DNA of 64,000 bases. It comes from Streptomyces sp. Q6. Its GTDB lineage: Bacteria; Actinomycetota; Actinomycetes; Streptomycetales; Streptomycetaceae. Both the position numbers and the translations under genes were made by a program. Positions 9,756 through 52,068 of this stretch are shown piece by piece; positions within the stretch are counted from its first letter, which is position 1; each line of letters opens with the position of its first letter. Where the stretch lies: assembly GCF_036967205.1 (NCBI RefSeq), contig NZ_CP146022.1, positions 5,270,001 to 5,334,000 on the forward strand, read 5' to 3'. A model generated the notes under the pieces. It had not been told where the DNA came from. It searched no databases and saw nothing but the letters and a program-made list of their open reading frames with translations.

Positions 9756-9767
9756 CTACGCGCGTTA
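9756..9767. promoter_or_regulatory. Nucleoside-regulon operator copy 1 (before bmp gene 1)
   Basis: CTACGCGCGTTA matches the palindrome CTACGCGCGTAG at 10 of 12 bases. Its right end overlaps a candidate -10 box TATGGT at 9766-9771, so a bound protein would block RNA polymerase. Start of the downstream gene is at 9822. Confidence 0.75.
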
Positions 9768-9821
9768 TGGTGCGCCGAACTGAGCGCCACAGAAGGCGTG
9801 TTGGATGATAGGGGCTTCCTG

Positions 9822-10883
9822 ATGCGTCGAATACCGCGGTTTACGCAGATCGCCGTCGGCGTCACCGGCCTGGCGCTCGCCGCCACCGCTTGTGGCGGAA
9901 CCAGCAGTGACAGCAACTCGGGCGGTGACGGCAAGAAGGAGAACCTGGGCCTCGCGATCGCGTACGACGTCGGCGGCAAGGGCGACCAGTCGTTCAACGA
10001 CTCCGCCTACGAGGGCCTGGAGAAGGCGAAGGCGGAGTTCGGCTACAAGACCGCCGACCAGGAGCCCAAGGACGGCGAGTCCGACGACGACAAGGCGCAG
10101 CGGCTCTCGAACCTCGCCAAGGCGGGCTACAACCCGGTCATCGGCATCGGCTACGCCTACGGCCCGGCGCTGGAGAAGGTCGCGAAGAAGTACCCGAAGA
10201 CCACCTTCGGCATCGTCGACTCGGTCGTCGAGGGCGACAACGTCGCCTCCCTGGTCTTCGCCGAGAACGAGTCCTCGTACCTCGCCGGTGTCGCCGCGGC
10301 CAAGGCCACCAAGACCGACCACGTCGGTTTCGTCGGCGGCGTGGACAACGAACTGATCAACAAGTTCGAGGCCGGCTTCGAGCAGGGCGTCAACGACACC
10401 AAGAAGGGTGTCGACATCGAGGTCCAGTACCTCGACGAGGACCCGGCGAAGGGCTTCGCCAGCCCCGACCTCGGCGAGGCCGCCGCGAAGAAGCAGCTGG
10501 AGGACGGCGCCGACGTGATCTACCACGCGGCCGGCCTCTCCGGGCAGGGCGTGATCAAGGCCGCGGCGACGCAGAAGAAGTGGGTCATCGGCGTCGACTC
10601 CGACCAGTACAACCAGAAGACGCTGGCCGCGTACAAGGACTACATCCTCACCTCCGCGCTCAAGGAGGTCGGCGGCTCCGTCTACGCCCTGGCCAAGTCG
10701 GTCGAGGACAAGAAGCCGCTGACCGGTGTGCAGACCTTCGACCTGAAGGTCGACGGCGTCGGCGCCTCGGAGTCCAACCCGAAGTTCAAGACCATCGCCG
10801 GTCTCGCCGACGCGGTCGCCAAGGCCAAGCAGGGGATCATCGACGGTTCGATCAAGGTCGACACCAAGCCGAAGAAGAAGTAG
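9822..10883 (+). CDS. BMP-family nucleoside-binding lipoprotein 1
   Basis: A 353-residue substrate-binding lipoprotein of the Bmp/PnrA family, which deliver purine and pyrimidine nucleosides to ABC importers. The signal peptide ends in a lipobox with Cys24 (AATAC), followed by a Ser/Gly linker. The binding domain contains AYDVGGKGDQSFND, VGFVGGVDN, YHAAGLSG and GVDSDQ, all family hallmarks. ATG at 9822 follows AGGGG at 9811-9815. It has its own operator-promoter and is followed by a hairpin, so it is transcribed apart from the next, very similar gene. It is about three quarters identical by eye to that neighbour and arose by tandem duplication. Confidence 0.92.
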   Translation: MRRIPRFTQIAVGVTGLALAATACGGTSSDSNSGGDGKKENLGLAIAYDVGGKGDQSFNDSAYEGLEKAKAEFGYKTADQEPKDGESDDDKAQRLSNLAKAGYNPVIGIGYAYGPALEKVAKKYPKTTFGIVDSVVEGDNVASLVFAENESSYLAGVAAAKATKTDHVGFVGGVDNELINKFEAGFEQGVNDTKKGVDIEVQYLDEDPAKGFASPDLGEAAAKKQLEDGADVIYHAAGLSGQGVIKAAATQKKWVIGVDSDQYNQKTLAAYKDYILTSALKEVGGSVYALAKSVEDKKPLTGVQTFDLKVDGVGASESNPKFKTIAGLADAVAKAKQGIIDGSIKVDTKPKKK

Positions 10884-10914
10884 GTCAGCAGCACGTCATA
10901 CGTACAACGTCCAG

Positions 10915-10944
10915 GGCGGGCGCGGAATCCTTTCCGCGCCCGCC
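10915..10944 (+). terminator. Terminator after bmp gene 1
   Basis: A perfect 13-bp stem (10915-10927 with 10932-10944) with a 4-base loop is followed by TTTCTTTG, a good factor-independent terminator separating the two bmp genes. Confidence 0.85.
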
Positions 10945-11036
10945 TTTCTTTGCTTTCGGCAACGCTTGTTTGCTGTGTGTCCGGCGTCTCGTACCGGGCC
11001 GATAACAGTCTGGACAATCAGGGTTTTATGTTTTGT

Positions 11037-11048
11037 CTACGCGCGTTA
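11037..11048. promoter_or_regulatory. Nucleoside-regulon operator copy 2 (before bmp gene 2)
   Basis: CTACGCGCGTTA, identical to copy 1, overlaps a candidate -10 TACTCT at 11047-11052. The surrounding bases (GCGGCGAACTCAGCG after it) also resemble those after copy 1, showing the promoter was duplicated with the gene. Confidence 0.75.
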
Positions 11049-11110: not shown

Positions 11111-12157
11111 ATGCGCCGGGTTTCCCGCATAGCGGTCGCAGGCACCGCCACCGCCTCGCTCGCCCTCGCCCTGTCCGCCTGTGGCGGCACGTCGTCGGAC
11201 GCCTCGTCGTCCGCCGGCGGCAAGGACAAGGGCCTCGCCATCGCGTACGACGTCGGCGGCAAGGGTGACCAGTCGTTCAACGACGCCGCCTACGAGGGCC
11301 TCCAGAAGGCCAAGAGCGAGTTCGGCTACGAGGTCGCCGACCAGGAGCCGAAGGACGGCGAGTCCGACGACGACAAGGCGGCCCGCCTGATCAACCTGGC
11401 GAAGATGGGCTACAACCCGGTCGTCGGCATCGGCTACTCCTACGCCCCGGCCGTCGAGCAGGCCGCGAAGAAGTACCCGAAGACCACCTTCGGCATCGTC
11501 GACGACGCCTCGGTCACCGGCAAGAACATCGCCGACCTGGTCTTCCAGGAGAACGAGGTCTCGTACCTGGCCGGCGTCACCGCCGCCATGAAGACCAAGT
11601 CGAACACCGTCGGCTTCGTGGGCGGCGTGGACAACGCGCTGATCAACAAGTTCGAGGCCGGCTTCGTCAAGGGCGTCAAGGACACGAAGAAGAACGTCGA
11701 GGTCAAGGTCCAGTACCTGGACGAGGACCCGGCCAAGGGCTTCGCCTCCCCGGACCTCGGCAAGGCCGCCGCCGAGAAGCAGCTGGAGGACGGCGCCGAC
11801 GTGGTCTACCACGCCGCGGGCCTCTCCGGTCAGGGCGTGATCGAGGCCGCCGCCGCCGCGAAGAAGTACGCGATCGGCGTCGACTCCGACCAGTACGCGC
11901 AGAAGGCCCTTGCCTCGTACAAGAAGTACATCATCACCTCCGCGACCAAGGGCGTCGCCGAGTCGATCTACAAGCTGGCCAAGTCCGTCGAGGACGGCAA
12001 GGCGGAGACCGGTGTCATCACCGGCGACCTGAAGTCCGGTGAGGTCGCCCTCGCCGACTCCAACCCGGAGTTCAAGAACGACGCCAAGCTCCAGGCGGCG
12101 CTCAAGAAGGCCGAAGCGGGCATCGTCGACGGCTCCATCCAGGTGCCGGTCAAGTAA
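11111..12157 (+). CDS. BMP-family nucleoside-binding lipoprotein 2
   Basis: A 348-residue paralogue of the preceding lipoprotein, with signal peptide and lipobox ending at Cys24 (ALSAC), then AYDVGGKGDQSFND, VGFVGGVDNALINK, YHAAGLSGQGVIEA and GVDSDQYAQK. GAAGGAG at about 11095-11101 sets the ATG. It lies next to the ATPase and permeases of the importer, so it is the more probable partner; the first copy may use the same membrane complex with a different nucleoside preference. Differences are concentrated in the C-terminal lobe and the linker after the lipid-anchored Cys. Confidence 0.92.
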   Translation: MRRVSRIAVAGTATASLALALSACGGTSSDASSSAGGKDKGLAIAYDVGGKGDQSFNDAAYEGLQKAKSEFGYEVADQEPKDGESDDDKAARLINLAKMGYNPVVGIGYSYAPAVEQAAKKYPKTTFGIVDDASVTGKNIADLVFQENEVSYLAGVTAAMKTKSNTVGFVGGVDNALINKFEAGFVKGVKDTKKNVEVKVQYLDEDPAKGFASPDLGKAAAEKQLEDGADVVYHAAGLSGQGVIEAAAAAKKYAIGVDSDQYAQKALASYKKYIITSATKGVAESIYKLAKSVEDGKAETGVITGDLKSGEVALADSNPEFKNDAKLQAALKKAEAGIVDGSIQVPVK

Positions 12158-12170
12158 CACCCGAGCAGCA

Positions 12171-12292: not shown

Positions 12293-12304
12293 CTACGCGT
12301 GTAG
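12293..12304. promoter_or_regulatory. Nucleoside-regulon operator copy 3 (before ABC ATPase)
   Basis: CTACGCGTGTAG differs from the perfect palindrome at one base. It is 29 bases before the expected start of the ATPase, indicating that the transporter operon has its own controlled promoter. Confidence 0.7.
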
Positions 12305-12332
12305 GCGACCCCCTTTCCCAGGAGAGTGCGCC

Positions 12333-13889
12333 ATCGCCACGTCAAGCTCCCCGCCGGCCGCCGTAGCCGTAGAACTCAAGGGCATCACCAAGCGCTTCCC
12401 CGGTGTCGTCGCCAACCACGACATCTGCCTCACCGTGACCAAGGGCACCGTGCACGCCCTCGTCGGTGAGAACGGCGCGGGCAAGTCCACCCTGATGAAG
12501 ATCCTCTACGGCATGCAGAAGCCGGACGAGGGCACCATCGCCATCGACGGCGAGCAGGTCTCGTACTCCTCGCCCGCCGACGCGATCGCCCGCGGCATCG
12601 GCATGGTCCACCAGCACTTCATGCTCGCGGACAACCTCACCGTCCTGGAGAACGTCGTCCTCGGCAGCGAGAAGCTGTACGGGATCGGCGCCAAGGCCCG
12701 CCGCAAGATCCTCGAGATATCCGAGCGCTACGGCCTCGGCGTGCGCCCGGACGTCCTCGTCGAGGACCTCGGCGTCGCCGACCGCCAGCGCGTCGAGATC
12801 CTCAAGGTCCTCTACCGCGGCGCGACCACCCTGATCCTCGACGAGCCGACCGCCGTGCTCGTCCCGCAGGAGGTCGACGCGCTCTTCGACAACCTGCGCG
12901 AGCTCAAGGCCGAGGGCCTGTGCGTCATCTTCATCTCGCACAAGCTCGGCGAAGTCCTCTCCGTGGCCGACGAGATCACCGTCATCCGGCGCGGCACCAC
13001 GGTCGGCACGGCCGTCCCCGCCGAGACGACCCCCAAGCAGCTCGCCGAGCTCATGGTCGGCAGCGAACTGCCCACCCCCGAGACGGCGGAGTCCACCGTC
13101 ACCGACCGCCCCGTGGTCGAGGTCGAGGACCTGCGCCTCGCGGCCCCCGGCGGCGGCAAGCCCCTGCTCGACGGCGTCACCTTCACCATCCACGCCGGTG
13201 AGGTGCTCGGCCTCGCGGGCGTCGAGGGCAACGGCCAGACCGAGCTCATCGAGGCGCTGATCGGCCTGGAGCAGGCGGACAGCGGCGTCATCAAGCTGCT
13301 CGGCGACGACGTCACCGGCTGGGCCACCCGCAAGCGCCGCGAGTCCGGCGTCGGCTACATCCCCGAGGACCGCCACCGCCACGGCCTGCTCCTCGACGCC
13401 CCGCTGTGGGAGAACCGCATCCTCGGTCACGTCACCGAGCGGCCCAACAGCAAGGGCTTCTGGCTCGACCCGAAGTCCGCGCAGGCCGACACCGAGCGGA
13501 TCGTCAAGGAGTACGACGTCCGCACGCCCGGCATCGACGTCACCGCGGCCTCGCTCTCCGGCGGCAACCAGCAGAAGCTGATCGTCGGCCGCGAGATGAG
13601 CCACGCCCCCAAGTTCCTGATCGCCGCCCACCCCACCCGCGGTGTGGACGTCGGCGCGCAGGCCCAGATCTGGGACCAGATCCGCGAGGCCCGCCGCGAG
13701 GGTCTCGCCGTCCTGCTGATCTCGGCCGACCTCGACGAGCTGATCGGCCTCTCCGACACCCTCCGGGTCATCTACGACGGCCGCCTGGTCGCCGACGCCG
13801 ATCCGGCCTCGATCACCCCGGAAGAGCTGGGATCCGCCATGACCGGTGCGGCCTCGGGCCACCTGGAGCACACGGAAGACGGTGCCTGA
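12333..13889 (+). CDS. ABC importer ATPase for nucleosides (two fused nucleotide-binding domains), ATC at start
   Basis: A fused ATPase of the RbsA/NupA type, about 518 residues. Domain 1 has Walker A GENGAGKST at 45-53 and Walker B LILDEPTAVL; its signature is the degenerate LGVADRQRVE. Domain 2 has a degenerate Walker A (VEGNGQTEL) but a clean LSGGNQQK signature, as usual for this family. The frame has no ATG, GTG or TTG near its beginning: the codon at the right place, seven bases after AGGAGA, is ATC at 12333, followed by GCCACGTCAAGC, where homologues would read Met-Ala-Thr-Ser-Ser. It is therefore a real AUC start, a mutated start, or a sequencing error. The permease genes follow directly. 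Confidence 0.88.
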   Translation: MATSSSPPAAVAVELKGITKRFPGVVANHDICLTVTKGTVHALVGENGAGKSTLMKILYGMQKPDEGTIAIDGEQVSYSSPADAIARGIGMVHQHFMLADNLTVLENVVLGSEKLYGIGAKARRKILEISERYGLGVRPDVLVEDLGVADRQRVEILKVLYRGATTLILDEPTAVLVPQEVDALFDNLRELKAEGLCVIFISHKLGEVLSVADEITVIRRGTTVGTAVPAETTPKQLAELMVGSELPTPETAESTVTDRPVVEVEDLRLAAPGGGKPLLDGVTFTIHAGEVLGLAGVEGNGQTELIEALIGLEQADSGVIKLLGDDVTGWATRKRRESGVGYIPEDRHRHGLLLDAPLWENRILGHVTERPNSKGFWLDPKSAQADTERIVKEYDVRTPGIDVTAASLSGGNQQKLIVGREMSHAPKFLIAAHPTRGVDVGAQAQIWDQIREARREGLAVLLISADLDELIGLSDTLRVIYDGRLVADADPASITPEELGSAMTGAASGHLEHTEDGA

Positions 13890-13891
13890 CC

Positions 13892-15040
13892 ATGAACACC
13901 CTCAAGCGCTGGTACGACGGGAACGCGGAGCGGGTCCTGCTCGCGGTGGCCGGGCCGGTCATCGCCCTGGTCGTGGCGTTCGCCCTGACCGCGATCGTCC
14001 TCGTGGCGTCAGGTGAGAACCCGTTCGACCCGTTCTCGATCATGTTCGAGCAGGCGACGTTCGCCGACGTCCAGGTGCTCATCATCAACGACGCCGCCGG
14101 TCTCTACATCGGCGCGCTCGCGGTGGCCATCGGCTTCCGGATGAACCTCTTCAACATCGGTGTCGAGGGCCAGTACCGGCTCGCCGCCTGTGTCGCCGCC
14201 ATCGTCGGCGCGCACATCGCCTTCCCGGCGTTCCTCCAGATCCCGCTCCTGATGCTGTCGGCCGCCGTGACCGGCGCCATCTGGTCCGGCATCGCGGGCG
14301 TCCTCAAGGTGACCCGCGGCGTCAGCGAGGTCGTCTCCACGATCATGCTGAACTCGATCGCGGCCTCGGTCATCGCGTACCTCACCCTGGAGGACGCGTT
14401 CGGTGTCGCCGTCGGCAACAACCGCACCACCGGCGAGATGGACAAGGCCGGCTGGTTCCCGGGCATCAACCTGGGCGACGCGGTCGGCACGATCTACGGC
14501 TTCGTCGTCGTCGCCGCGATCCTCGGCGTCGTCTACTGGGTGATGCTGAACCGCACCCGCTTCGGCTTCGACCTGCGCGCCTCGGGCGCCTCGGAGTCCG
14601 CGGCCGCCGCGTCCGGTGTCTCCGCGAAGAAGATGGTCCTCACGGCCATGCTCCTGTCGGGCGCGGTCGCCGGTCTCGCCGGTCTGCCCACGCTGCTCGG
14701 CTCGACGCACACCTTCTCCGACTCCTTCCCGGCCTCGCTCGGCTTCAACGCCATCACCGTGGCGCTGCTGGGCCGCAACAGCCCGGCCGGCATGGCGCTC
14801 GCCTCCCTCCTGCTCTCCTGGCTGTTCAACGCGGCCGACCCGCTGGACCTCCAGGGCTACAGCTCCGAGATCGCCACGATCATGCAGGGCCTGATCGTCA
14901 TCGCCGTCGTCGTCTCCTACGAGGCGGTCCGCGTCTGGGGCACCCGCCGCCAGCAGCAGCGCGTCGGTGCCGAACTCGCCGCGGGCCATGTTCTCGGCAC
15001 CCCCGACACCCACGACAAGAAGCAGGAGGTGGCCGCCTGA
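13892..15040 (+). CDS. Nucleoside ABC importer permease 1
   Basis: A 382-residue integral membrane protein of the RbsC/NupP branched-chain-type permease family, with about nine to ten hydrophobic helices and the conserved FNIGVEGQ motif after the third helix, used to couple to the ATPase. It begins two bases after the ATPase stop and overlaps the second permease by ATGA at 15040, so the three are co-translated. Pairing with the BMP lipoproteins identifies nucleosides as the probable substrate. Confidence 0.92.
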   Translation: MNTLKRWYDGNAERVLLAVAGPVIALVVAFALTAIVLVASGENPFDPFSIMFEQATFADVQVLIINDAAGLYIGALAVAIGFRMNLFNIGVEGQYRLAACVAAIVGAHIAFPAFLQIPLLMLSAAVTGAIWSGIAGVLKVTRGVSEVVSTIMLNSIAASVIAYLTLEDAFGVAVGNNRTTGEMDKAGWFPGINLGDAVGTIYGFVVVAAILGVVYWVMLNRTRFGFDLRASGASESAAAASGVSAKKMVLTAMLLSGAVAGLAGLPTLLGSTHTFSDSFPASLGFNAITVALLGRNSPAGMALASLLLSWLFNAADPLDLQGYSSEIATIMQGLIVIAVVVSYEAVRVWGTRRQQQRVGAELAAGHVLGTPDTHDKKQEVAA

Positions 15041-16299
15041 TGAGTACGGCACCCGTCCTCGACAAGCCCGCCGCGGCCCCGGCCGCCCGGCGCAAGGTCA
15101 GTCTTCCCGTCCTGCTCCTGATCGTCTCCGGCCTGCTCTGCCTGGTCTCCGCCGTCCGTCTGATCACCGACGCCGACGGCCTGACCTCCGTCAGCCAGAT
15201 GTCCACCGCGCTCCAGCTCGCCGTCCCGATCGGCCTCGCCGGTCTCGGCGGCCTGTGGGCGGAGCGCGCGGGCGTCGTCAACATCGGCCTCGAAGGCATG
15301 CTCATCCTCGGCACCTGGTTCGGCGCCTGGGCCGGCTACCAGTGGGGTCCGTGGGTCGGCGTCATCGCCGCGCTCGTCGGCGGCGCGCTCGGCGGCCTCG
15401 TGCACGCCCTCGCGACGGTCACCTTCAACGTCAACCACATCGTCTCCGGTGTGGCCATCAACATCCTGGCCCTCGGCGCCACCCGCTACCTCTCCGTCCT
15501 GATGTACGACGGCATGGACGGCGCCACCTCCCGCCAGTCCCCGGCGGTGCCGAGCCTCGGCGAGTTCACCGTCCCCGGGCTCGCCGACGCCCTCGCCGAC
15601 CTCAACAAACAGGGCTACTTCCTGATCTCCGACATCGCGGGCCTGCTCGGTGGCGTGATGACGGGCGTCTCCTGGCTGACCCTGATCGCCGTCGCCCTGA
15701 TCCCGCTGTCCTGGTGGATCCTGTGGCGCACGGCGTTCGGTCTGCGGCTGCGGTCCTGCGGCGAGAACCCGGTCGCGGCCGAGTCCCTCGGCGTCAACGT
15801 GATCAAGTACAAGTACCTGGCCGTGATCATCTCCGGTGCCCTCGCGGGCCTCGGTGGCGCGTTCCTGTCGATGGTCTCCTCCAACTACTACCTGGAGGGC
15901 CAGACCGGCGGCCGCGGCTACATCGGCCTCGCCGCGATGATCTTCGGCAACTGGATGCCCGGCGGACTCGCCCTGGGCGCGAGCCTGTTCGGCTACAGCG
16001 ACACCCTCAAGGTCCGCGGCGGCACCGAGAACACCCACGCGCTGCTCCTGCTGATCGCGATCCTCGCGCTGCTCGCGGTGGCCTGGCTGATCTGGAAGAA
16101 GAAGTACGTCGGCGGCGCCGTCACGCTCGCCGTCTCCGTCCTGCTCTTCTTCTGGTACGCCTCCACCGACTCGGTGCCCAGCCAGGTCGCCACGGCCATG
16201 CCGTACGTCCTGACCCTGCTCGTTCTGGCACTCTCGGCCCAACGCCTGCGCATGCCGAAGGCGGACGGGCAGCCGTACCGGAAGGGACAGGGCAAGTGA
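15040..16299 (+). CDS. Nucleoside ABC importer permease 2
   Basis: A 419-residue membrane protein, paralogous to the first permease and containing the matching NIGLEGMLI motif (residues about 83-91) and SGALAGLGGAFLS. These importers use a heterodimer of two such permeases. ATG overlaps the preceding stop by one base and its own stop overlaps the GTG of cytidine deaminase, so uptake and the first catabolic step are expressed as one unit. There is a long extra C-terminal helical stretch after the core. Confidence 0.92.
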   Translation: MSTAPVLDKPAAAPAARRKVSLPVLLLIVSGLLCLVSAVRLITDADGLTSVSQMSTALQLAVPIGLAGLGGLWAERAGVVNIGLEGMLILGTWFGAWAGYQWGPWVGVIAALVGGALGGLVHALATVTFNVNHIVSGVAINILALGATRYLSVLMYDGMDGATSRQSPAVPSLGEFTVPGLADALADLNKQGYFLISDIAGLLGGVMTGVSWLTLIAVALIPLSWWILWRTAFGLRLRSCGENPVAAESLGVNVIKYKYLAVIISGALAGLGGAFLSMVSSNYYLEGQTGGRGYIGLAAMIFGNWMPGGLALGASLFGYSDTLKVRGGTENTHALLLLIAILALLAVAWLIWKKKYVGGAVTLAVSVLLFFWYASTDSVPSQVATAMPYVLTLLVLALSAQRLRMPKADGQPYRKGQGK

Positions 16300-16688
16300 C
16301 CTCGGAAGCCGACTGGGGGGCGCTGCGGGACGCGGCCCGCGAGGCCATGTCCCGCGCGTACGCCCCGTACTCGGGCTTCCCGGTCGGCGCGGCGGCCCTC
16401 GTCGACGACGGCCGCACGGTCTCCGGCTGCAACGTGGAGAACGCGTCGTACGGACTCGGCCTGTGCGCCGAGTGCGGTCTGGTCTCGCAGCTGACCGCCA
16501 CCGGCGGCGGCCGCCTGACCCACTTCACGTGCGTGGACGGCAAGGGCGACCTCCTGATGCCGTGCGGCCGCTGCCGTCAGCTCCTCTACGAGTTCGGCGG
16601 CAGGGAGCTGCTCCTGGAGACGGCGTCGGGCGTACGGACGCTGGGTGAGATGCTGCCGGACGCCTTCGGCCCCGAGCACCTCGTCTGA
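16296..16688 (+). CDS. cdd: Cytidine deaminase
   Basis: A 130-residue enzyme that converts cytidine and deoxycytidine to uridine and deoxyuridine. The zinc and catalytic motifs are both present: CAEC (with the Glu proton shuttle) and PCGRCRQ. SGFPVGAAAL and GCNVENASYGLGLCAEC are the substrate loop. Its length fits the small homotetrameric form. GTG at 16296 overlaps the permease stop (GTGA), so it is the last gene of the importer operon and is followed by a strong terminator. Confidence 0.95.
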   Translation: MTSEADWGALRDAAREAMSRAYAPYSGFPVGAAALVDDGRTVSGCNVENASYGLGLCAECGLVSQLTATGGGRLTHFTCVDGKGDLLMPCGRCRQLLYEFGGRELLLETASGVRTLGEMLPDAFGPEHLV

Positions 16689-16832: not shown

Positions 16833-17384
16833 ATGACGGAACTCCGTATCCCCAAGGCCGAACTCCCCGCCGAACTGCGGGCCGGCATGATCGAGCAGCT
16901 CGGCGCGGTCATGGAGCCCGCCGAAGTGCTCTGGCACAACCCGCGCGTCGCCCAGGACGGCCTCGCGCTCGGTGGCCAGGTCGCCCAGTGGAACGAGGCC
17001 GACGCGAGCCTCAAGTCGTACGCGCACATGGCGGTGGCCGCGCAGGTCGGGTGCAGCTGGTGCCTCGACATCGGCTACTTCCAGGCGCAGAACGAGAAGC
17101 TCGATCTGACCAAGGCGAGCCAGGTCCCGCAGTGGCGCGACTCCGACGTCTTCGAGCCGCTGGAGCGGGACGTCATGGAGTACGCCGAGGCCATGACGAA
17201 CACCCCGCCCACGGTCACCGACGAGATGTACGCGGGCCTGCTCGACCGGGTCGGCCCGGCCGCGATGGTCGAACTCACCACGTACATCGCCTTCGTCAAC
17301 TTCTCGACCCGGGGCAACACGGCCCACGGCATCACCTCGCAGGGCTTCTCGGAGGCCTGCGAGATCCCGCTGGCCGCGCGGTAG
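16833..17384 (+). CDS. Carboxymuconolactone-decarboxylase/AhpD-like protein
   Basis: A 183-residue all-helical CMD-family protein. The AhpD-type redox motif CSWC with a following D (GCSWCLDIG, near residue 75) is present, so it may be a thiol-dependent peroxidase partner or related oxidoreductase instead of a true decarboxylase. AGGAGG about ten bases upstream supports ATG 16833. It faces the SnoaL-like gene convergently. There is no link in sequence to nucleoside metabolism; the exact substrate is unknown. Confidence 0.82.
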   Translation: MTELRIPKAELPAELRAGMIEQLGAVMEPAEVLWHNPRVAQDGLALGGQVAQWNEADASLKSYAHMAVAAQVGCSWCLDIGYFQAQNEKLDLTKASQVPQWRDSDVFEPLERDVMEYAEAMTNTPPTVTDEMYAGLLDRVGPAAMVELTTYIAFVNFSTRGNTAHGITSQGFSEACEIPLAAR

Positions 17385-17407: not shown

Positions 17408-17851
17408 TCAGGCGGGACCGTCGGGCAGCACGCCGAGCCGGCGCAGCTGCGCGAGGACGTCGACGACCCCCCAGATCTCCACGATGCGCTCGCCGTCGAA
17501 GCGGAAGATGAAGATCTCGTCGTACGCGACGGCCCTCCCGGTGGGGGCGATCCCCCGGAACTCGCCCCGGTGCGTGCCCGTCACCCGGTTCCGGAAGACG
17601 ACCTTGTCGCCCTCGGCGATCACGTCCTCGACGGACACGTGCAGGTCCGGGTACGCGTGCAGCAGTACGACCCACACCTGCTTCAGGGCCTGCGCGCCGG
17701 TCGTCCCGGTCGGGGTGGGGGAGTGGAACAGCACGTCGGGTGCGACGAGTTGGTCCACGGCCTTGGCGAAGACCTCCGCGTCGCCGGAGTTCATGGCGTC
17801 GTGGAAGCGGGCGAAGAGCGCCTTGTTGGCGGCGGCCTGGTCGGTGGACAT
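17408..17851 (-). CDS. SnoaL-like (NTF2-fold) protein
   Basis: A 147-residue protein with the SnoaL/ester-cyclase pattern: an N-terminal helix with ARFHDAMNSGD, then VAPDVLFHSP, HAYPDLHVSVEDVIAEGDKVVFRNRVTGTHRGEF and FIFRFDGERIVEIWGVVD. This cone-shaped fold hosts many small-molecule isomerases and hydrolases, and many members have no known activity. It is a single gene on the minus strand between the CMD gene and deoA. The ATG start at 17851 follows a purine-rich GAGGAGGACCCC. Confidence 0.8.
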   Translation of the reverse strand: MSTDQAAANKALFARFHDAMNSGDAEVFAKAVDQLVAPDVLFHSPTPTGTTGAQALKQVWVVLLHAYPDLHVSVEDVIAEGDKVVFRNRVTGTHRGEFRGIAPTGRAVAYDEIFIFRFDGERIVEIWGVVDVLAQLRRLGVLPDGPA

Positions 17852-18015: not shown

Positions 18016-18027
18016 CTATGCGCGTAG
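18016..18027. promoter_or_regulatory. Nucleoside-regulon operator copy 4 (before deoA)
   Basis: CTATGCGCGTAG matches the palindrome at 11 of 12 bases and overlaps a candidate -10 box TAGAGT at 18025-18030. Transcription would start near 18037 and give a 45-base leader before deoA. Confidence 0.75.
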
Positions 18028-18082: not shown

Positions 18083-19360
18083 ATGGACGTCATCTCCGTC
18101 ATCCGCGCCAAGCGGGACCGGGGCCGCCTCACCGACGAGCAGATCGACTGGGTCGTCGATGCGTACACGCGCGGCGAGGTCGCCGACGAGCAGATGTCGG
18201 CCCTCGCCATGGCGATCTTCCTCAACGGGATGGACCGCGCGGAGATCGCCCGCTGGACCGCCGCGATGATCAACTCCGGGGAGCGGATGGACTTCTCCGT
18301 CCTCGCCCGCCCCGCCGCCGACAAACACTCCACGGGCGGCGTCGGCGACAAGATCACGCTGCCGCTCGCCCCGCTGGTCGCGGCGTGCGGCGCGGCCGTG
18401 CCGCAGCTGTCCGGGCGCGGCCTCGGCCACACCGGCGGCACCCTCGACAAGCTGGAGTCGATCCCGGGCTGGCGCGCCGACATCTCGAACGAGGAGATGA
18501 TGCGCACCCTGGAGGACGTCGGCGCGGTCATCTGCGCACCGGGCAGCGGCCTGGCCCCCGCCGACAAGAAGCTCTACGCCCTGCGGGACGTCACCGCGAC
18601 CGTGGACTGCATTCCGCTCATCGCCTCCTCGATCATGTCGAAGAAGATCGCTGAGGGGACGGGCTCGCTGGTCCTGGACGTGAAGGTCGGCACCGGCGCC
18701 TTCATGCAGGAGCTCGACCAGGCCCGCGAACTCGCCCGCACGATGGTCGGGTTGGGCCGCGACCACGGCCTGCCGACCGTCGCGCTGGTGACGGACATGA
18801 ACACCCCGCTCGGCCTGACCGCGGGCAACGCCCTCGAAGTCCGGGAATCCGTCGAGGTGTTGGCGGGCGGCGGCCCGGCCGACGTCGTCGAGCTGACCCT
18901 GGCCCTCGCCCGCGAAATGCTCGACGCGGCGGGCCTGAAGGACGCCGACCCGGCGAAGGCCCTGGCCGACGGCTCGGCGATGGACGCCTGGCGCCGGATG
19001 ATCGCGGCGCAGGGCGGCGACCCGGACGCGGCGCTCCCCGTGGCCCGCGAGACGCAGGTGGTGACGGCGCGCGAGTCCGGCGTCCTCACCCGCCTCGACG
19101 CCCTCTCGGTGGGCCTCGCCGCCTGGCGGCTCGGCGCCGGGCGGGCCCGCAAGGAGGACCCGGTCCAGGCCGCCGCCGGTGTCGAACTCCACGCCAAGCC
19201 GGGCGACTCCGTCTTCGCGGGCCAGGCCCTCATGACCCTGCACACGGACACCCCGGAGCGCTTCGCGTACGCCCTGGAGGCGCTGGACGGCGCGTACGAC
19301 GTGGCACCCGCCGGCACGGTGTTCACGGCGGGGCCGATCGTGCTGGAACGTATCGGCTGA
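18083..19360 (+). CDS. deoA: Thymidine phosphorylase
   Basis: A 425-residue pyrimidine nucleoside phosphorylase that splits thymidine or deoxyuridine with phosphate to give the base and deoxyribose-1-phosphate. It has the phosphate and nucleoside site KHSTGGVGDK (near residue 82), the family signature SGRGLGHTGGTLDKLE, and KVGTGAFM. GGAGG at 18071-18075 fixes the start at ATG 18083, not at the upstream ATGs in the same frame. It is monocistronic, preceded by the shared operator and ended by a bidirectional hairpin at 19393-19430. Confidence 0.95.
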   Translation: MDVISVIRAKRDRGRLTDEQIDWVVDAYTRGEVADEQMSALAMAIFLNGMDRAEIARWTAAMINSGERMDFSVLARPAADKHSTGGVGDKITLPLAPLVAACGAAVPQLSGRGLGHTGGTLDKLESIPGWRADISNEEMMRTLEDVGAVICAPGSGLAPADKKLYALRDVTATVDCIPLIASSIMSKKIAEGTGSLVLDVKVGTGAFMQELDQARELARTMVGLGRDHGLPTVALVTDMNTPLGLTAGNALEVRESVEVLAGGGPADVVELTLALAREMLDAAGLKDADPAKALADGSAMDAWRRMIAAQGGDPDAALPVARETQVVTARESGVLTRLDALSVGLAAWRLGAGRARKEDPVQAAAGVELHAKPGDSVFAGQALMTLHTDTPERFAYALEALDGAYDVAPAGTVFTAGPIVLERIG

Positions 19361-22028: not shown

Positions 22029-23321
22029 TCAGTGCGCCGGGAGGGCTCCGGCCGTCGTCCGGTGCCGCTGCGCGCGGGCCGCGTACGTCCCCCACAGCGT
22101 CAGCGAGACGACGCCGAGCACCGCCACCAGACCGAGGCCCACCGTCCCCGCCCAGCCCTGCGCGTGGAAGGCGATCGCGCCGACGGCCGAGCCCGCGCTG
22201 GAGCCGATGTAGTACGCGGACTGGTAGAGGGCCGAGGCCTGCGCCCTGCCGTGCGTGGCCGTGTGGCTCACCGACGACGACGCCGTCGCGTGCCCGGCGA
22301 AGAAGCCCGCCGTGATCAGCATCAACCCGAGCAGGACGACCGGCAGTCGGGGCACGAGGGCCAGGAACAGGCCCGCGGTCGTGGTACCCGCGGCCAGGTA
22401 CAGCGTGCCGCGCCGCCCGAGCCGTGCGACGAGCTTCCCGGCCGCCGCCGACGAGACCGTGCCCACCAGATACACCAGGAAGATCGAGCCGACGATGCCC
22501 TGGGGCAGCGAGAACGGCGCGGCCGTGAGCCGGTAGCCGATCACCGTGTACACCGCGCCGAACACCGTCATGAACAGGGCGCCGATCACGTACAGGCGGC
22601 GCAGCAGCGGGTTCGCCAGGTGGCCGCCCACCGTCCGGGCCAGGGCGCGGGGGCGCAGCGACCCCGGCGTGAAGTGACGCGGCGCGGGCAGCAGCGCGCG
22701 GAACGCGACGGCGCACACCACCGCGATCACACCGATCGTCCCGACGGCCGCCCGCCAGCCCCACGCCTGCGCGATCCAGCCGCCGATGACCCGGCCGCTC
22801 ATGCCCCCGATGGAGTTGCCCGCGACGAACAGGCCGATGGCCGCGACCAGTGCCTTCGGCCGCACCTCCTCCGCCAGGTACGCCATCGCGGAGGCGGGCA
22901 GACCGGCGAGCGCCGCGCCCTGGAGCGCGCGCAGCGCGATCAGCACGCCGAGCGACGGCGCGAAGGGAACCAGGAGCCCGACCGTGACGGCCACCGACAG
23001 CGACGCCGTCATCACCGTGCGCCGCCCGAACCGCTCGGAGAGCGCGCTCAGCGGCAGCACGCACAGCGCGAGCGCGAACGTCGCCCCGGACACCGTCCAG
23101 CTCGCCGTGGACGCGCTCGCCCCGAAGTCGGCGGAGACCAGCGGCAGCAGCGCCTGCGTCGAGTACAGCAGGGCGAAGGTGGCGACACCGGCGAGGAAGA
23201 GGGCGAAGCTCATCCGGCGGTAGCCGGGACCGCCCGGACTCATCCGCGTGTCCGTCGGGGTGGGGGCGGCGGGGGCGGCGACCGCGTGGGTGGCGGCCGC
23301 CCGGCTACTGGCAGGAGACAT
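22029..23321 (-). CDS. YnfM-like MFS transporter
   Basis: A 430-residue transporter with 12 hydrophobic helices after a 35-residue hydrophilic N-terminus. Motif A-like LSERFGRRTVMT lies between helices 2 and 3, with a matching KLVARLGRRGTL in the second half. TACCGT on the minus strand at 23333-23328 lies six bases before ATG 23321, so it is probably leaderless. It is divergently paired with a LysR regulator across 62 bases, the usual arrangement for a regulated efflux pump. Substrate unknown. Confidence 0.87.
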   Translation of the reverse strand: MSPASSRAAATHAVAAPAAPTPTDTRMSPGGPGYRRMSFALFLAGVATFALLYSTQALLPLVSADFGASASTASWTVSGATFALALCVLPLSALSERFGRRTVMTASLSVAVTVGLLVPFAPSLGVLIALRALQGAALAGLPASAMAYLAEEVRPKALVAAIGLFVAGNSIGGMSGRVIGGWIAQAWGWRAAVGTIGVIAVVCAVAFRALLPAPRHFTPGSLRPRALARTVGGHLANPLLRRLYVIGALFMTVFGAVYTVIGYRLTAAPFSLPQGIVGSIFLVYLVGTVSSAAAGKLVARLGRRGTLYLAAGTTTAGLFLALVPRLPVVLLGLMLITAGFFAGHATASSSVSHTATHGRAQASALYQSAYYIGSSAGSAVGAIAFHAQGWAGTVGLGLVAVLGVVSLTLWGTYAARAQRHRTTAGALPAH

Positions 23322-23383
23322 GCCACGACGGTAGGACCGCCCGACTCATGCGTCCAATGCACGAACACTCCATAATCGTTCCC

Positions 23384-26425: not shown

Positions 26426-26437
26426 CTACGCGCGTAG
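26426..26437. promoter_or_regulatory. Nucleoside-regulon operator copy 5 (before add)
   Basis: A perfect CTACGCGCGTAG ending four bases before TACAGT (26442-26447), the presumed -10 box of adenosine deaminase. It therefore lies between the -35 and -10 positions, a classical repressor site. Confidence 0.82.
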
Positions 26438-26453: not shown

Positions 26454-27587
26454 ATGACGAGCCAGACCACCGCGAACCCCAGCAGCCCTCAGGTTCCGAC
26501 CCCGGAGCAGATCCGCCGCGCGCCGAAGGTGCTCCTCCACGACCACCTCGACGGCGGCCTGCGCCCCGGCACGATCGTCGACCTGGCACGCGAGCAGGGG
26601 TACGAGAACCTGCCGGAGACCGAGCCCGACAAGCTCGGCCTCTGGTTCCGCGAGGCCGCCGACTCCGGTTCCCTGGAGCGGTACCTGGAGACGTTCGCCC
26701 ACACCTGCGCCGTCATGCAGACGCGCGAGGCGCTGGTCCGGGTCGCCGCGGAGTGCGCCGAGGACCTCGCCGAGGACGGCGTCGTCTACGCCGAGGTCAG
26801 GTACGCCCCCGAGCAGCACCTGGAGCGGGGCCTCACCCTCGAAGAGGTCGTCGAGGCGGTCAACGAGGGCTTCCGCGAGGGCGAGCGCCGCGCCAAGGAG
26901 AACGGCCACCGCATCCGCATCGGCGCGCTCCTCACCGCCATGCGCCACGCCGCCCGCGCCCTGGAGATCGCCGAACTCGCCAACCGCTACCGCGACTCGG
27001 GCGTCGTCGGCTTCGACATCGCGGGCGCCGAGGCCGGCTTCCCGCCCACCCGTCACCTCGACGCCTTCGAGTACCTCAAGGGCGAGAACAACCACTTCAC
27101 GATCCACGCCGGCGAGGCCTTCGGACTCCCGTCGATCTGGCAGGCCCTCCAGTGGTGCGGCGCCGACCGCCTCGGCCACGGCGTGCGCATCATCGACGAC
27201 ATCAAGGTCGAGACCGACGGCACCGTCCAGCTCGGCCGCCTCGCCGCGTACGTCCGCGACAAGCGCGTCCCGCTGGAGCTGTGCCCGTCCTCCAACCTCC
27301 AGACGGGCGCCGCGAGTTCGATCGCCGAGCACCCGATCGGGCTGCTGCGCAAGCTCCGGTTCCGCGCCACGGTCAACACGGACAACCGGCTGATGTCGGG
27401 GACGTCCATGAGCCGCGAGTTCGGCCTCCTCGCCGACGCGTTCGGCTACACCCTCACCGACTTCGAGTGGTTCACCGTCAACGCCCTGAAGTCGGCCTTC
27501 ATCCCCTTCGACGAGCGGCTCGCGATGATCAACGACGTGGTCAAGCCGCGCTACGCCGAACTGCGCGCGGAGTGGCTGTTCCAGTAG
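26454..27587 (+). CDS. add: Adenosine deaminase
   Basis: A 377-residue zinc TIM-barrel deaminase converting adenosine and deoxyadenosine to inosine forms. Zinc ligands His29 and His31 are in LHDHLDGG; further on come [14 protein letters not shown] (His and Glu), LGHGVRI (His) and [10 protein letters not shown] (Asp pair). The length matches the Streptomyces-type enzymes. ATG 26454 lies six bases after TACAGT and has no Shine-Dalgarno, so it is leaderless. The product inosine is the substrate of the deoD phosphorylase encoded at 51207, which carries the same operator. Confidence 0.95.
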
Positions 27588-39808: not shown

Positions 39809-40777
39809 TCAGTCCACCGTCACGTAGTCGGGACCGGAGTAGCGGCCGGTGGCCAGCTTCTGACGCTGCATCAGCAGGTCGTTCAGGAGGCTGGAGGCGC
39901 CGAACCGGAACCAGTGGTTGTCGAGCCAGTCCTCGCCCGCCGTCTCGTTCACGAGCACGAGGAACTTGACGGCGTCCTTGGAGGTACGGATGCCGCCGGC
40001 GGGCTTCACGCCGATCTGGATGCCGGTGGCGGCGCGGAAGTCGCGCACGGCCTCCAGCATCAGCAGGGTGTTGGCGGGCGTGGCGTTGACCCCGACCTTG
40101 CCCGTCGAGGTCTTGATGAAGTCGGCTCCGGCCAGCATGCCGATCCAGCTCGCGCGCCGGATGTTGTCGTACGTCGACAGCTCACCGGTCTCGAAGATGA
40201 CCTTGAGCCGGGCGGGCCCCGAGGCCTCCTTCACGGCGCGGATCTCCTCGTAGACCTTCATGTAGTGGCCGGCGAGGAAGGCGCCGCGGTCGATGACCAT
40301 GTCGATCTCGTCGGCCCCGGCCTCCACGGCGTCCTGCACGTCCGCGAGCTTCACGTCGAGCGCGGCGCGGCCCGCCGGGAAGGCGGTGGCCACGGACGCG
40401 ACCTTCACGTCGGTGCCGGCGACGGCGGCCTTCGCGGTGGCCACCATGTCCGGGTAGACGCAGACGGCGGCGGTGCGCGGGGTCGTGCGGTCGGTCGGGT
40501 CGGGGTTGACGGCCTTCGCGCCGAGGGTCCGGACCTTGCCCGGGGTGTCGGCGCCTTCGAGGGTCGTCAGGTCGATCATCGAGATGGCCAGGTCGATGGC
40601 GTACGCCTTGGCCGCGGCCTTGATGGAACGGGTCCCCAGGGCGGCGGCCCGCGCCTCCAGGCCCACCGCGTCGACGCCAGGCAGTCCCTGGAGGAATCGG
40701 CGCAGAGTGGCCTCGGAGGCGACGGCGTCGGCCAGCGCGTGTTCTTTGGCGGTTGCGGGTGCAGTGGGCATGGTCAC
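39809..40777 (-). CDS. deoC: Deoxyribose-phosphate aldolase
   Basis: A 322-residue class I aldolase splitting deoxyribose-5-phosphate to acetaldehyde and glyceraldehyde-3-phosphate. The Schiff-base Lys222 is in DFIKTSTGK, with LKVIFETGEL and IGVKPAGGI also conserved. GTG at 40777 is chosen because TATGCT on the minus strand (40789-40784) ends six bases before it and the shared operator is directly upstream of that. The enzyme takes the product of deoA and deoD after mutase conversion. It is followed by two aldehyde dehydrogenase genes. Confidence 0.95.
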   Translation of the reverse strand: MTMPTAPATAKEHALADAVASEATLRRFLQGLPGVDAVGLEARAAALGTRSIKAAAKAYAIDLAISMIDLTTLEGADTPGKVRTLGAKAVNPDPTDRTTPRTAAVCVYPDMVATAKAAVAGTDVKVASVATAFPAGRAALDVKLADVQDAVEAGADEIDMVIDRGAFLAGHYMKVYEEIRAVKEASGPARLKVIFETGELSTYDNIRRASWIGMLAGADFIKTSTGKVGVNATPANTLLMLEAVRDFRAATGIQIGVKPAGGIRTSKDAVKFLVLVNETAGEDWLDNHWFRFGASSLLNDLLMQRQKLATGRYSGPDYVTVD

Positions 40778-40790: not shown

Positions 40791-40802
40791 CTACGCGCGT
40801 AG
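40791..40802. promoter_or_regulatory. Nucleoside-regulon operator copy 6 (before deoC)
   Basis: A perfect CTACGCGCGTAG, one base upstream of the TATGCT -10 box of the leaderless deoC promoter. Confidence 0.82.
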
Positions 40803-45728: not shown

Positions 45729-45870
45729 TCGGTACTAATATATGGATCATCCGGCGGGCAGGGCTCCGCCGTCAAGAGGCTGGCGTGTGGTCTCAGAATG
45801 TGAGCCGCATACGATCGTCGCGACATGGCCGGGGGACGCCCTCCTCAGGGGCGCGGGAGGAAGGCAGACG

Positions 45871-46647
45871 GTGAGCACACTCGCCAACGCGCGGGACGTC
45901 CTGCGTCTGATCGCGCACCTGCAGCGCGACGTCACCGTCACGGACGTGGCGGGTGAGCTCGGACTGCCCAAGAGCTCGGTGTCGCGGACGCTGAGCATGA
46001 TGGCCGAGTACGGCTTCCTGGAGCGCGACCCGGCGACCCGCGCCTACCGCCCCGGCGAGCTGATCATGGAGGCCTCGTACCACTTCAGGGCCTCGCGCGG
46101 CACGGTCTCGCTGCTGGAGGAGGAGGTCGCCCGGCTCGTCGCCGACACCGGATACACCGGCTACGTCGACGTCCTGGACGGCGGCGAGTCGCTCGTCCTG
46201 CACATGCGCATCGGCACCACCGGCGCCCTCCAGGCCTACACCCCCGCGGGCACCCGGGCGCCCGCCTACGCCAGCTCGATGGGCCGCGCCCTGCTCGCGC
46301 GCCTCGACGACTCCGAGGTCATGCGGCTGGTGGACTCCGGGATCGAGCGCAGCGCGGGCAGCGCCCCCAAGTCCCGCAGGGAGCTCCTCGCCCAGCTGGC
46401 CCGGGTCCGCGTCGACGGCTGGGAGTTCTCGCGCGGCGAGTACGTCCCGGGCGTCTCCGGGATCTCGGCCGCCGTCGAGGACCCCGACACCGGCCAGCTC
46501 TTCGGCATCGGGATCGCGCTGCCGGCCTCGGAGCTCCGCGACGACGTCGCCGAGCGCCACGGCAGGTCGGTGCGCGACGCCGCCCTGCGGGTGGGCAAGC
46601 GCATCGGCGACCCGTACTGGCTGCGGTACGTCGGCGCCGAGCGCTGA
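45871..46647 (+). CDS. IclR-family regulator
   Basis: A 258-residue IclR protein. Residues 1-60 hold the winged HTH (ARDVLRLIAHLQRDVTVTDVAGELGLPKSSVSRTLSMMAEYGFLERD), followed by the effector domain (SLLEEEVARLVADTGYTGYVDVLDGGESLVL to GISAAVEDPDTGQLFGIGIALP). GTG 45871 follows GGAGGAAGG at 45855-45863. It lies between the OPT/DUF917/M20 genes and aroM; the GTTCCA-N5-TGGAAC sites at both promoters suggest it controls both sides. Confidence 0.9.
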   Translation: MSTLANARDVLRLIAHLQRDVTVTDVAGELGLPKSSVSRTLSMMAEYGFLERDPATRAYRPGELIMEASYHFRASRGTVSLLEEEVARLVADTGYTGYVDVLDGGESLVLHMRIGTTGALQAYTPAGTRAPAYASSMGRALLARLDDSEVMRLVDSGIERSAGSAPKSRRELLAQLARVRVDGWEFSRGEYVPGVSGISAAVEDPDTGQLFGIGIALPASELRDDVAERHGRSVRDAALRVGKRIGDPYWLRYVGAER

Positions 46648-49326: not shown

Positions 49327-49482
49327 GTCGGCGGCTCCTGGGAGTCTGAGAGGCGAAGAGGGCGGGGGCAACGTTCCCGTCGCACCCCGCCCTTGTCGCC
49401 CCGCCTTGCGTCAACTGACCCGCAGAAATCACCCGTTGGAGTGCCCGCCGGGCGCCTGCGAGGGCACCGGCGGCACCAGCCC

Positions 49483-51164
49483 TCAGATCCCGGCGGCCGC
49501 CGCCAGGTCCCGCTTGAGCTCCGCGAGCCGCTCCGCCGCCGTCGCGCGCGCCGCGGGCAGCCCGCGCGGTCCGCGACCGGCACGACGACCTCCAGGTAGC
49601 ACTTCAGCTTGGGCTCCGTGCCGGACGGGCGGACGATGACCCGCGCGCCGTCCAGCGTGTAGCGCAGCCCGTCCGTCGGGGGCAGTCCGTTCGCACCCTC
49701 CGTCAGGTCCTCCGCCTTCGTCACGGCGAGATTCGCCAGACGGGCCGGGGGCTGCTCGCGCAGACGGCGCATGGCGTCCGCGATGACCGTCAGGTCCTCG
49801 ACGCGCACGCTCAGCTGGTCCGTGGCGTGCAGCCCGTGGGCGAGCGCCAGGTCGTCGAGCGCGTCCAGGAGCGTGCGGCCCCGCTCCTTGAGCCCGCTCG
49901 CCAGCTCGGTCACGAGGAGCGCGGCCGTGATGCCGTCCTTGTCGCGCACGCCCTCGGGGTCGACGCAGTAGCCGAGCGCCTCCTCGTAGCCGTAGCGCAG
50001 CCCTTCGACGCGGGCGATCCACTTGAAGCCGGTCAGCGTCTCCTCGTACGGGAGCGACGCGGCCTCGGCGATCCGGCCGAGCAGCGACGACGACACGATC
50101 GACTCCGCGAACACACCGCTGACGCCCCGCTCGACGAGGTGGGCGGCCAGCAGCGCGCCGACCTCGTCGCCGCGCAGCATGCGCCAGTCGTCCGCGTCCG
50201 GGCCGTCCGCGACCGCCACCGCGCAGCGGTCCGCGTCCGGGTCGTTGGCGATGATCAGGTCCGGCCGCGCGGTACGGGCCGTCGCGAACGACAGGTCCAT
50301 CGCGCCCGGCTCCTCCGGGTTCGGGAACGCGACCGTCGGGAAGTCCGGGTCGGGCTCGGCCTGCTCGGGCACGAGCACCGGCTCGGGGAAGCCCGCGCGG
50401 GCGAACGCGGCGAGCAGGGTGTCCTTGCCGACGCCGTGCATCGCCGTGTAGACGACGCGGGCGGTGCGGGCGGACCCGGGGGCCAGGACCGCGTCCGTAC
50501 GCGCCAGGTACGCCTCCAGGACCTCGTCGCCGAGGATCTCCCAGCCGCTGTCCGGGCGGGGCACGTCGTGCAGCGAGACCACCGCGTCGATCTCGGCGGC
50601 GATCTCCGCGTCGGCGGGCGGCACGATCTGCGAGCCGTCGCCCAGGTACACCTTGTAGCCGTTGTCCCGCGGCGGGTTGTGCGAGGCCGTGACCTCGACA
50701 CCGGCCACCGCGCCCAGGTGTCGTACGGCGAAAGCGAGGACGGGCGTCGGCAGCGGGCGGGGGAGCACCACGGCGCGCAGCCCGGCACCCACCATGACCG
50801 CCGCCGTGTCCCGGGCGAAGTCCGCGGACTTGTGCCGCGCGTCGTACCCGATGACGACGAGACCGCCCGTGCCCGAGAGCGCTTCGCGCTCGCTCCCCTG
50901 ATGCCGGCCCTTCGCCTTCAGGTACGCGGCGAGGCCCGCGGCCGCGCGGATGACGACCGCGCGGTTCATCCGCATCGGGCCCGCGCCCAGCTCGCCGCGC
51001 AGGCCCGCCGTGCCGAACTGCAACGTCCCCGAGAAACGCTCGCCGATGGCCTCCAGGTCGCCGGCCTCGATGAGCTTCGCCAGCTCCTCGCGGGTCTCGG
51101 CGTCGGGGTCCTCGGCCAGCCAGGTCTTCGCCCGGTCGAGCAGTTCGCTGCCAGATGCGGTCAC
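49483..51164 (-). pseudogene. Phosphosugar mutase (PGM/PMM family), frameshift near the C-terminus
   Basis: The main frame has all PGM/PMM features: phosphoserine loop TASHNPPRDNGYK, metal loop NDPDADRC and sugar loop (GFKWIARVEGLRYGYEEALG), and phosphate-binding RPSGTEPKLKCYLE. Near 49562 the minus strand lacks one C (GGGCTGCCC for GGGCCTGCCC); restoring it gives a normal end with LAELKRDLAAAAGI at stop 49483. As it stands it would read on to 49257. It lies downstream of deoD, 42 bases away, in place of a deoB gene, so it may convert (deoxy)ribose-1-phosphate to the 5-phosphate, i.e. act as a phosphopentomutase. Confidence 0.85.
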
Positions 51165-51206
51165 GGTTCGTATTCCTTCGGACGTCGGGCGTTCGGACGT
51201 GGGGGA

Positions 51207-52031
51207 TCAGATCTTGGCGAGGACCTGGGTCAGCAGCTCACCCATGCGGACGGCGGAGTCGCGGCCGGCCTGGAGGACTTCCTCGTGGTTGAGCGGCTCG
51301 CCGGACAGGCCCGCGGCCAGGTTCGTCACCAGGGAGATGCCGAGGACCTCCGCGCCCGCCTCGCGGGCCGCGATGGCCTCCAGGGTGGTGGACATGCCGA
51401 CCAGGTCGGCGCCGAGGATGCCGGCCATGCGGACCTCGGCCGGGGTCTCGTAGTGCGGGCCGGGGAACTGGGCGTAGACGCCCTCTTCCAGCGTCGGGTC
51501 GATCTCCTGGCACAGCGTGCGCAGACGCGGCGAGTACAGGTCGGTGAGGTCGACGAAGTTCGCGCCGACGATCGGCGACGTCGCCGTCAGGTTGATGTGG
51601 TCGGAGATGAGGACCGGCTGGCCCGGACGCATGCCCTGGCGCAGACCGCCGCAGCCGTTCGTCAGGACGATGGTCTTGCAGCCCGCGGCGGCGGCGGTGC
51701 GCACGCCGTGCGCGACCGAGGCGACACCGCGGCCCTCGTAGTAGTGGGTGCGGCCCAGGAAGACCAGGGCGCGCTTCTCCCCGACCTGGTACGAGCGCAC
51801 CTTGCCGCCGTGGCCCGCCACCGCCGCGCCGGTGAAGCCGGGCAGCTCGGTGAAGGGGAACTCGGCGGCGGGCGCGCCGAGCGCCTCGGCGGCGGGCGCC
51901 CAGCCGGAGCCCATCACGAGGGCGACGTCGTGGGTCTCGGCGCCCGTCAGCTCGCGCAGGCGCGCGGCGGCGGCGTCGGCGGCGGCGTAGGGGTCGCCCT
52001 TGAGGTGGTCCGGAGTCACAGATGCGTTCAC
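51207..52031 (-). CDS. deoD: Purine nucleoside phosphorylase
   Basis: A 274-residue trimeric-type PNP, which splits inosine or guanosine nucleosides with phosphate. Motifs include GSGWAPAA near residue 41, [10 protein letters not shown] and [14 protein letters not shown] and the C-terminal [14 protein letters not shown] with NLAAGL. GTG 52031 lies seven bases after TACCCT (52044-52039, minus strand), so it is leaderless, and the operator is 12 bases further upstream over the -35. It is the first gene of an operon with the phosphosugar mutase. The symbol follows Streptomyces usage; the class is the low-molecular-mass (PunA) form. Confidence 0.93.
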
Positions 52032-52056
52032 GCGGTTGAGGGTAGCCGGTCACGTC

Positions 52057-52068
52057 CTACGCGCGTAG
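52057..52068. promoter_or_regulatory. Nucleoside-regulon operator copy 7 (before deoD)
   Basis: A perfect CTACGCGCGTAG overlapping the predicted -35 position of the deoD promoter. Confidence 0.82.

Follow-up and report, generated by a model that had tools for sequence, protein, structure and literature searches.

In Escherichia coli, nucleoside uptake genes and the deo catabolic genes are repressed via one type of operator within the DeoR and CytR regulons. In Streptomyces, the DasR regulon places secreted depolymerases, uptake and monomer catabolism under one repressor, the substrate being chitin and N-acetylglucosamine (GlcNAc). We describe a short palindrome, CTACGCGCGTAG, that recurs at the promoters of nucleoside uptake and catabolic genes in a stretch of 64,000 nucleotides from Streptomyces sp. 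Q6 (contig NZ_CP146022.1, positions 5,270,001 to 5,334,000 of the forward strand), here called the window and numbered from its first base. Judging from its placement and conservation, a single dimeric repressor very probably uses this palindrome as its operator and so governs nucleic-acid scavenging genes across the chromosome, both in Streptomyces and in the rest of its family.

The candidate regulon resembles those of E. coli DeoR and CytR in the kind of genes targeted, and a DeoR-family gene adjoins deoD here. It differs from them in its palindrome and in the inclusion of a secreted ribonuclease (RNase), deoxyribonuclease (DNase) and nucleotidase together with purS. With DasR it appears to share the span from secreted enzymes to catabolism, although the substrate, the operator and the genes are not the same. 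In the available text of PMC4052901 (gamma-proteobacteria) and PMC8789054 (Bacillus), PurR is a dedicated repressor of purine biosynthesis, and purS bears the operator here; the motif, however, is distinct and most of its targets are catabolic or secreted. According to the available part of PMC4052901, LacI-type PurR orthologues are confined to three orders of gamma-proteobacteria. PunR/PunC of E. coli, as far as the accessible portion of PMC8376909 describes it, is a LysR-type regulator beside a major facilitator superfamily (MFS) transporter and serves purine nucleoside use. A similar divergent pair of MFS transporter and LysR regulator lies upstream of add (22029-24352), but its lysR promoter is without the palindrome in nine of nine genomes. 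No account of a regulon with such an operator, range and gene combination was found in the open-licence literature.

Palindrome copies and their conservation

The preliminary description had listed seven copies of the palindrome in the window, three of them perfect (before add, deoC and deoD), two with one mismatch (before an ABC ATPase gene and deoA) and two with two mismatches (before two bmp genes). All seven were refound, and both two-mismatch copies read CTACGCGCGTTA. Pfam domains agree with the genes named behind them, namely two Bmp proteins, an ABC ATPase, a pyrimidine-nucleoside phosphorylase, an adenosine deaminase, a DeoC aldolase and a purine-nucleoside phosphorylase (Table 1). It had found no further intergenic copy in the window; the remaining matches with two mismatches (25571, 27561, 29653 and 31422) overlap called open reading frames (ORFs). 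Taken as a number, the excess is modest: with up to two mismatches there are 11 matches against 5.09 expected, a count that one of 100 shuffles reached. The scanned assembly comprises 8,951,745 bases in two contigs and contains three copies of the perfect palindrome, which are those of add, deoC and deoD in the window, and two copies of CTACGCGCGTTA, both at bmp promoters.

Orthologous promoters were read in 80 kb around the cluster in ten other genomes, using the best match from -200 bp to +30 bp of the aligned start; the stretch from one genome (G289) contains only deoD of the nucleoside genes. A perfect site was present at add in 9/9 genomes, at deoC in 9/9 and at deoD in 10/10, and CTACGCGCGTTA was present at 12/12 bmp promoters. 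The ATPase promoter carried a site in seven of nine genomes, six of them perfect and one with one mismatch. With up to two mismatches allowed, no site occurred at any of 61 promoters of neighbouring genes (perm2 0/9, phosphomannomutase 0/10, disulphide reductase 0/10, aldehyde dehydrogenase 0/9, lysR 0/9, deoR 0/10, tetR 0/4) or in any of 119 coding stretches. At the sequence level, the chromosomal sites are conserved at orthologous promoters for nucleoside uptake and catabolism, that of deoA only in part.

Of 81 family genomes, 80 have at least one perfect copy, as do 16 of 17 genera; 71 of the 81 genomes have two to five copies and nine have one. G254 alone among the family genomes has no perfect copy; it carries CTACGCGAGTAG at deoC and CTACGCGCGTTA at deoD. 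In a phylum-wide draw, a perfect copy was present in all eight same-genus genomes, our own included, against 5 of 238 others, with a single copy each. Chance recurrence of a GC-rich palindrome would be compatible with the shuffle result for the window and with genome-wide near-matches that do not exceed a reversed control pattern. Against it stand the conserved orthologous promoters with clean neighbouring-gene controls and the restriction to one family, and we consider its probability negligible.

Probable members outside the window

The variant CTACGCGCGTNR occurs at 22 distinct positions in the genome. Twelve of these precede nucleic-acid, nucleoside or nucleobase genes, five being window sites and seven lying elsewhere (Table 1). 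Most near-matches ending in a pyrimidine (NTACGCGCGTNY) are coding: a simple ORF caller marked 24 of 30 such loci as coding, compared with 7 of the 22 CTACGCGCGTNR positions; of those seven, two (L005 and L006) fall ahead of a probable gene start. The candidate regulon is larger than the gene list of the preliminary description, and a secreted RNase, DNase and nucleotidase as well as purS belong to it too.

RNase Sa orthologues were located in 25 of 31 genomes, and 24 of the 25 have a site in their promoter, reading CTACGCGCGTCA in 22 and carrying one additional change in two. The site lies about 22 bp ahead of the ATG where starts were aligned. The single orthologue without a promoter site (L192) has a match inside its coding start, which was excluded from the count. 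None of five RNase paralogues (51-60% identity) carried a site, and one of 30 RNase coding controls had a match with two mismatches. Cyclic nucleotidase promoters bore a site at 30/30 loci in 27 of 31 genomes, with 0/30 in coding controls; at five of them (L201, L208, L209, L211, L212) tandem sites stand 13 or 14 bp apart. The secreted DNase set comprised 80 loci, the best relatives of that protein. A site was found at 79 of these promoters and in 0/80 coding controls, the exception (L306) having just 56 bp of upstream sequence, and in some DNase promoters the site has the opposite orientation. At purS, 30/30 promoters read from the 31 genomes having the gene carried a site, with 0/30 in coding controls. 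The UriH gene was found in one of 31 genomes.

Further perfect sites were seen ahead of purN or purH in two genomes of genus g183 and at a second adenosine deaminase gene in G128. In three g183 genomes (L093, L094, L095), a perfect site stands before secreted proteins with a weak ABC_transp_aux match, He_PIG or CBM_4_9 domains. In the Q6 genome, the two mirrored sites before the endonuclease I gene (L231 1501-1533; G000:C1:3111865-3111897) form a long inverted repeat, CTACGCGGGTTG-N9-CAACCCGCGTAG.

Site architecture and proposed mode of action

The consensus of 18 regulon-assigned sites of the Q6 genome, two of them at one promoter, is tCTACGCGCGTAGa, and a T precedes the core in 14 of the 18. 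Viewed from the gene, the 5' half is near-constant and the 3' half variable at most targets; at purS the reverse holds and the 5' half varies. A -10-like hexamer, TAnnnT, begins at a characteristic distance from the start of the site: +10 at bmp (14/14), +13 at deoC (10/10), +16 at add (10/10), +24 at deoD (10/11) and +26 at purS (30/30). In 29 of 79 DNase promoters it lies immediately ahead of the site. The statement that four of the seven window sites overlap or abut the -10 box holds for these predicted hexamers, which begin inside both bmp sites, 1 bp after the deoC site and 4 bp after the add site. The bmp site deviates from the palindrome because the hexamer begins within it. A register that is fixed per gene, differs between genes and places the site near or inside a -10-like element suggests the operator of a repressor.

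Activators generally bind upstream of the -35 element at restricted spacing. Here the register takes different values from gene to gene and the site overlaps or abuts the hexamer at bmp, deoC and add, so that binding of an activator in place of a repressor is improbable. The motif often lies near a -10-like hexamer and no more than about 100 bp from the start codon, as might be expected of a promoter or alternative-sigma element or of an element acting in the mRNA. The same variable register, the two orientations at DNase promoters and the tandem copies at cyclic nucleotidase promoters speak against such elements, and we regard this possibility as very remote.

Several results weigh against a repressor operator with so coherent a set of targets. 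With one mismatch allowed, the whole genome holds 23 sites, whereas the reversed pattern used as a control has 38. Ten of the 22 CTACGCGCGTNR positions are coding or at genes with no evident pathway link (L007, L015, L016, L017, L018, L019, L022, L024, L026, L029); L016 is a peptidase M15 and L026 a subtilase. The ATPase promoter lacks a site in G171 and G285, and the deoA promoter has one in only three of nine genomes, each with one mismatch. TAnnnT has no constant position at the ATPase (2/8), cyclic nucleotidase (1/30) and RNase (1/23) promoters, purN of the Q6 genome has no site, and other genomes have some of their perfect sites at unrelated or unassigned genes. Since near-matches are no commoner than those of the reversed control, the signal is carried by placement and not by count; near-matches are meaningless without context, and counting by itself was set aside as proof.

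The genome-wide count thus favours the preliminary description in that the perfect motif is confined to the window and 12 of the 22 CTACGCGCGTNR positions are at pathway genes, but not in the other ten. In relatives, its motif stands upstream of the orthologues of add, deoC, deoD and bmp and, in most cases, of the ATPase gene, but deoA largely fails to follow. Loss of the deoA site only where this gene closely trails the transporter operon was considered and rejected: deoA lies about 0.4-0.55 kb behind perm2 with and without its own site, so spacing does not explain the loss. Some perfect sites in other genomes were judged accidental or unexplained, namely L088, which lies in a hairpin, L087 and L097, which overlap a called gene, and L083, at a HAD hydrolase. 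The earlier proposal of one dispersed repressor of import, deamination, phosphorolysis and deoxyribose breakdown is supported by placement and conservation, but its gene list was too short.

Under the proposed repressor, the operator would be occupied when substrate is absent, and RNA polymerase would be blocked. When RNA or DNA is available, an intermediate, either a nucleoside or a ribose- or deoxyribose-phosphate, would free the operator from the repressor. Secreted RNase, DNase and nucleotidases would then yield nucleosides, the Bmp/ABC transporter would take these up, and Cdd, Add, DeoA, DeoD and DeoC would pass the bases to salvage and the pentose phosphate to central metabolism. With purS, the first gene of purSQL, under the same operator, purine synthesis would be tied to salvage. 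A broader possibility, which we put forward as somewhat speculative, is a Streptomycetaceae master repressor for nucleic acids as food, comparable to DasR for chitin. A single operator would then cover secreted RNase and DNase as well as nucleotidases, the import of nucleosides and nucleobases, nucleoside breakdown and purine synthesis. The repressor might sense pentose phosphate from recycled RNA and DNA, for example that of the colony's own lysed mycelium.

If this is true, one switch connects extracellular nucleic acid with metabolism in an antibiotic-producing bacterial family, spanning RNase Sa, a well-known model protein, through to purine synthesis. Whether Streptomyces has specific control over the recycling of DNA and RNA from dying mycelium would also become testable. 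Ready reporters are at hand in the add and deoC promoters, and the perfect site could serve as a direct bait for the repressor.

Candidate regulators and other features of the window

The leading repressor candidate is the DeoR-family protein encoded near deoD, an assignment based on sequence and neighbourhood that we make tentatively, at a little under even. It carries a DeoR-type helix-turn-helix (HTH; PF08220) and a DeoRC sensor domain (PF00455), and at E 0.01 it has a single relative in the PDB, the deoxyribose operon repressor 7l6l. The gene is present in 81/81 family genomes and lies near deoD in all ten other genomes read. It co-occurs with the motif, which is perfect in 80 of the 81 genomes and near-perfect in G254, a correspondence that is weak because a single clade is concerned. 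Residues 1-62 are identical in all ten other genomes, the remainder being 77-88% identical; across 36 family loci, these 62 residues are identical in 29, differ at residue 62 alone in six and differ at three places in one. A constant DNA-binding domain fits many conserved targets.

Three findings weigh against the DeoR-family candidate. Its own promoter is conserved but carries no operator in any of ten genomes, the best match having three to five mismatches. Among 197 genomes of the class outside the family, 19 have homologues; in the 15 of these 19 regions that were read, none was near deo genes, and the 15 regions together contain ten matches with two mismatches but none with zero or one. 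The three closest outside-family homologues have, by eye, GATCGG-type repeats upstream. The deoR promoter (54330-54390) is strongly conserved in the family and contains CTGCTGAAAGCAG, an inverted repeat unlike the operator.

These points would equally suit a real regulon governed by another repressor, a family-wide LacI, TetR, GntR, LysR or other factor with its gene nearby or elsewhere in the genome, to which we give an even chance. The presence of the DeoR-family gene in every family genome, its position beside deoD in ten and its constant residues 1-62 argue the other way, as does the showing of the remaining regulators near the sites. The IclR gene (45742-46647) was set aside, having no match in the ten stretches; the available part of PMC8222616 contains no IclR-type regulon for nucleosides or purines. 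The TetR gene (55365-55949) was set aside as patchy, being present in 4 of 10 stretches and at 18 of 30 DeoR loci. The LysR gene (23348-24352) is kept near add in nine of ten genomes but was also set aside, as it has no site and a less constant HTH, with 42 to 59 of 62 residues kept. LacI operators are, in the accessible text of PMC4052901, even palindromes of mostly 16-22 nt with a central CG; the palindrome described here has the central CG and is shorter, with a conserved length of 12-14 nt.

SCO4920 is probably the orthologue of the DeoR-family gene. In the available part of PMC3224704, an inferred module that includes sigma factors and bldN has SCO4920 at its centre, and in that of PMC4848846 SCO4920 appears in a table on glucose effects; neither settles its role.

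Table 1. Features of the window (positions) and sites elsewhere in the Q6 genome (L numbers, our locus handles).
Feature	Position or locus	Strand	Basis or remark
Putative operator CTACGCGCGTTA, before first bmp gene	9756..9767	+	Final two bases open TAnnnT hexamer
Bmp/PnrA-like nucleoside binding protein, first	9822..10883	+	PF02608, 2.6e-56
Putative operator CTACGCGCGTTA, before second bmp gene	11037..11048	+	Palindrome scan
Bmp/PnrA-like binding protein, second	11111..12157	+	PF02608, 3.7e-53
Putative operator CTACGCGTGTAG, before ABC ATPase	12293..12304	+	Palindrome scan, one mismatch
ABC ATPase of nucleoside transporter, apparent ATC start	12333..13889	+	PF00005 for 12369-13889
Transporter permease	15040..16299	+	PF02653
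Probable cytidine deaminase (cdd)	16293..16688, start provisional	+	CAEC and PCGRCRQ motifs read by eye
Putative operator CTATGCGCGTAG, before deoA	18016..18027	+	Palindrome scan, one mismatch
deoA-type pyrimidine-nucleoside phosphorylase	18083..19360	+	PF00591, PF07831, PF02885
Putative operator, perfect, before add	26426..26437	+	Palindrome scan; 4 bp ahead of TAnnnT
add, adenosine deaminase	26454..27587	+	PF00962, 3.2e-106
deoC, deoxyribose-phosphate aldolase family	39809..40777	-	PF01791
Putative operator, perfect, before deoC	40791..40802	-	Palindrome scan; 1 bp ahead of TAnnnT
deoD-type purine-nucleoside phosphorylase	51207..52031	-	PF01048
Putative operator, perfect, before deoD	52057..52068	-	Palindrome scan
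DeoR-family regulator, candidate repressor	54385..55353	+	PF00455, PF08220
CTACGCGCGTNR site before secreted nuclease, endonuclease/exonuclease/phosphatase fold	L005		Fold shown on relative L274
CTACGCGCGTNR site before 2',3'-cyclic phosphodiesterase/3'-nucleotidase-like gene	L006		
CTACGCGCGTNR site before second nucleotidase-like phosphoesterase	L011		
CTACGCGCGTNR site before NCS1 nucleobase permease	L023		
CTACGCGCGTNR site before PhoX phosphatase	L025		
CTACGCGCGTNR site before RNase of RNase Sa family	L027		
CTACGCGCGTNR site before UriH-type nucleoside hydrolase	L028		
Other near-match, purS	L012		
Other near-match, endonuclease I gene	L231		Two mirrored sites
Other near-match, xanthine/uracil permease	L010		Less clear; DUF2530 gene nearer to site than permease
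Other near-match, GDSL lipase	L004		Counterexample

Two genes (16833-17384 and 17408-17851) stand between the probable cdd and deoA in the window. Nothing on an ATC start of the transporter ATPase was found in the open-licence literature. The apparent ATC (12320-12335) lies behind a conserved AGGAGAG-TGCGCC or -TGCGTC leader. Six other genomes likewise show ATC at this codon; G128 has ATA, G285 has ATC following AGGAG, and the leader element is missing in G171. In G193, G023 and G317, the frame from the upstream stop to the conserved part of the ATPase contains no ATG, GTG, TTG or CTG.

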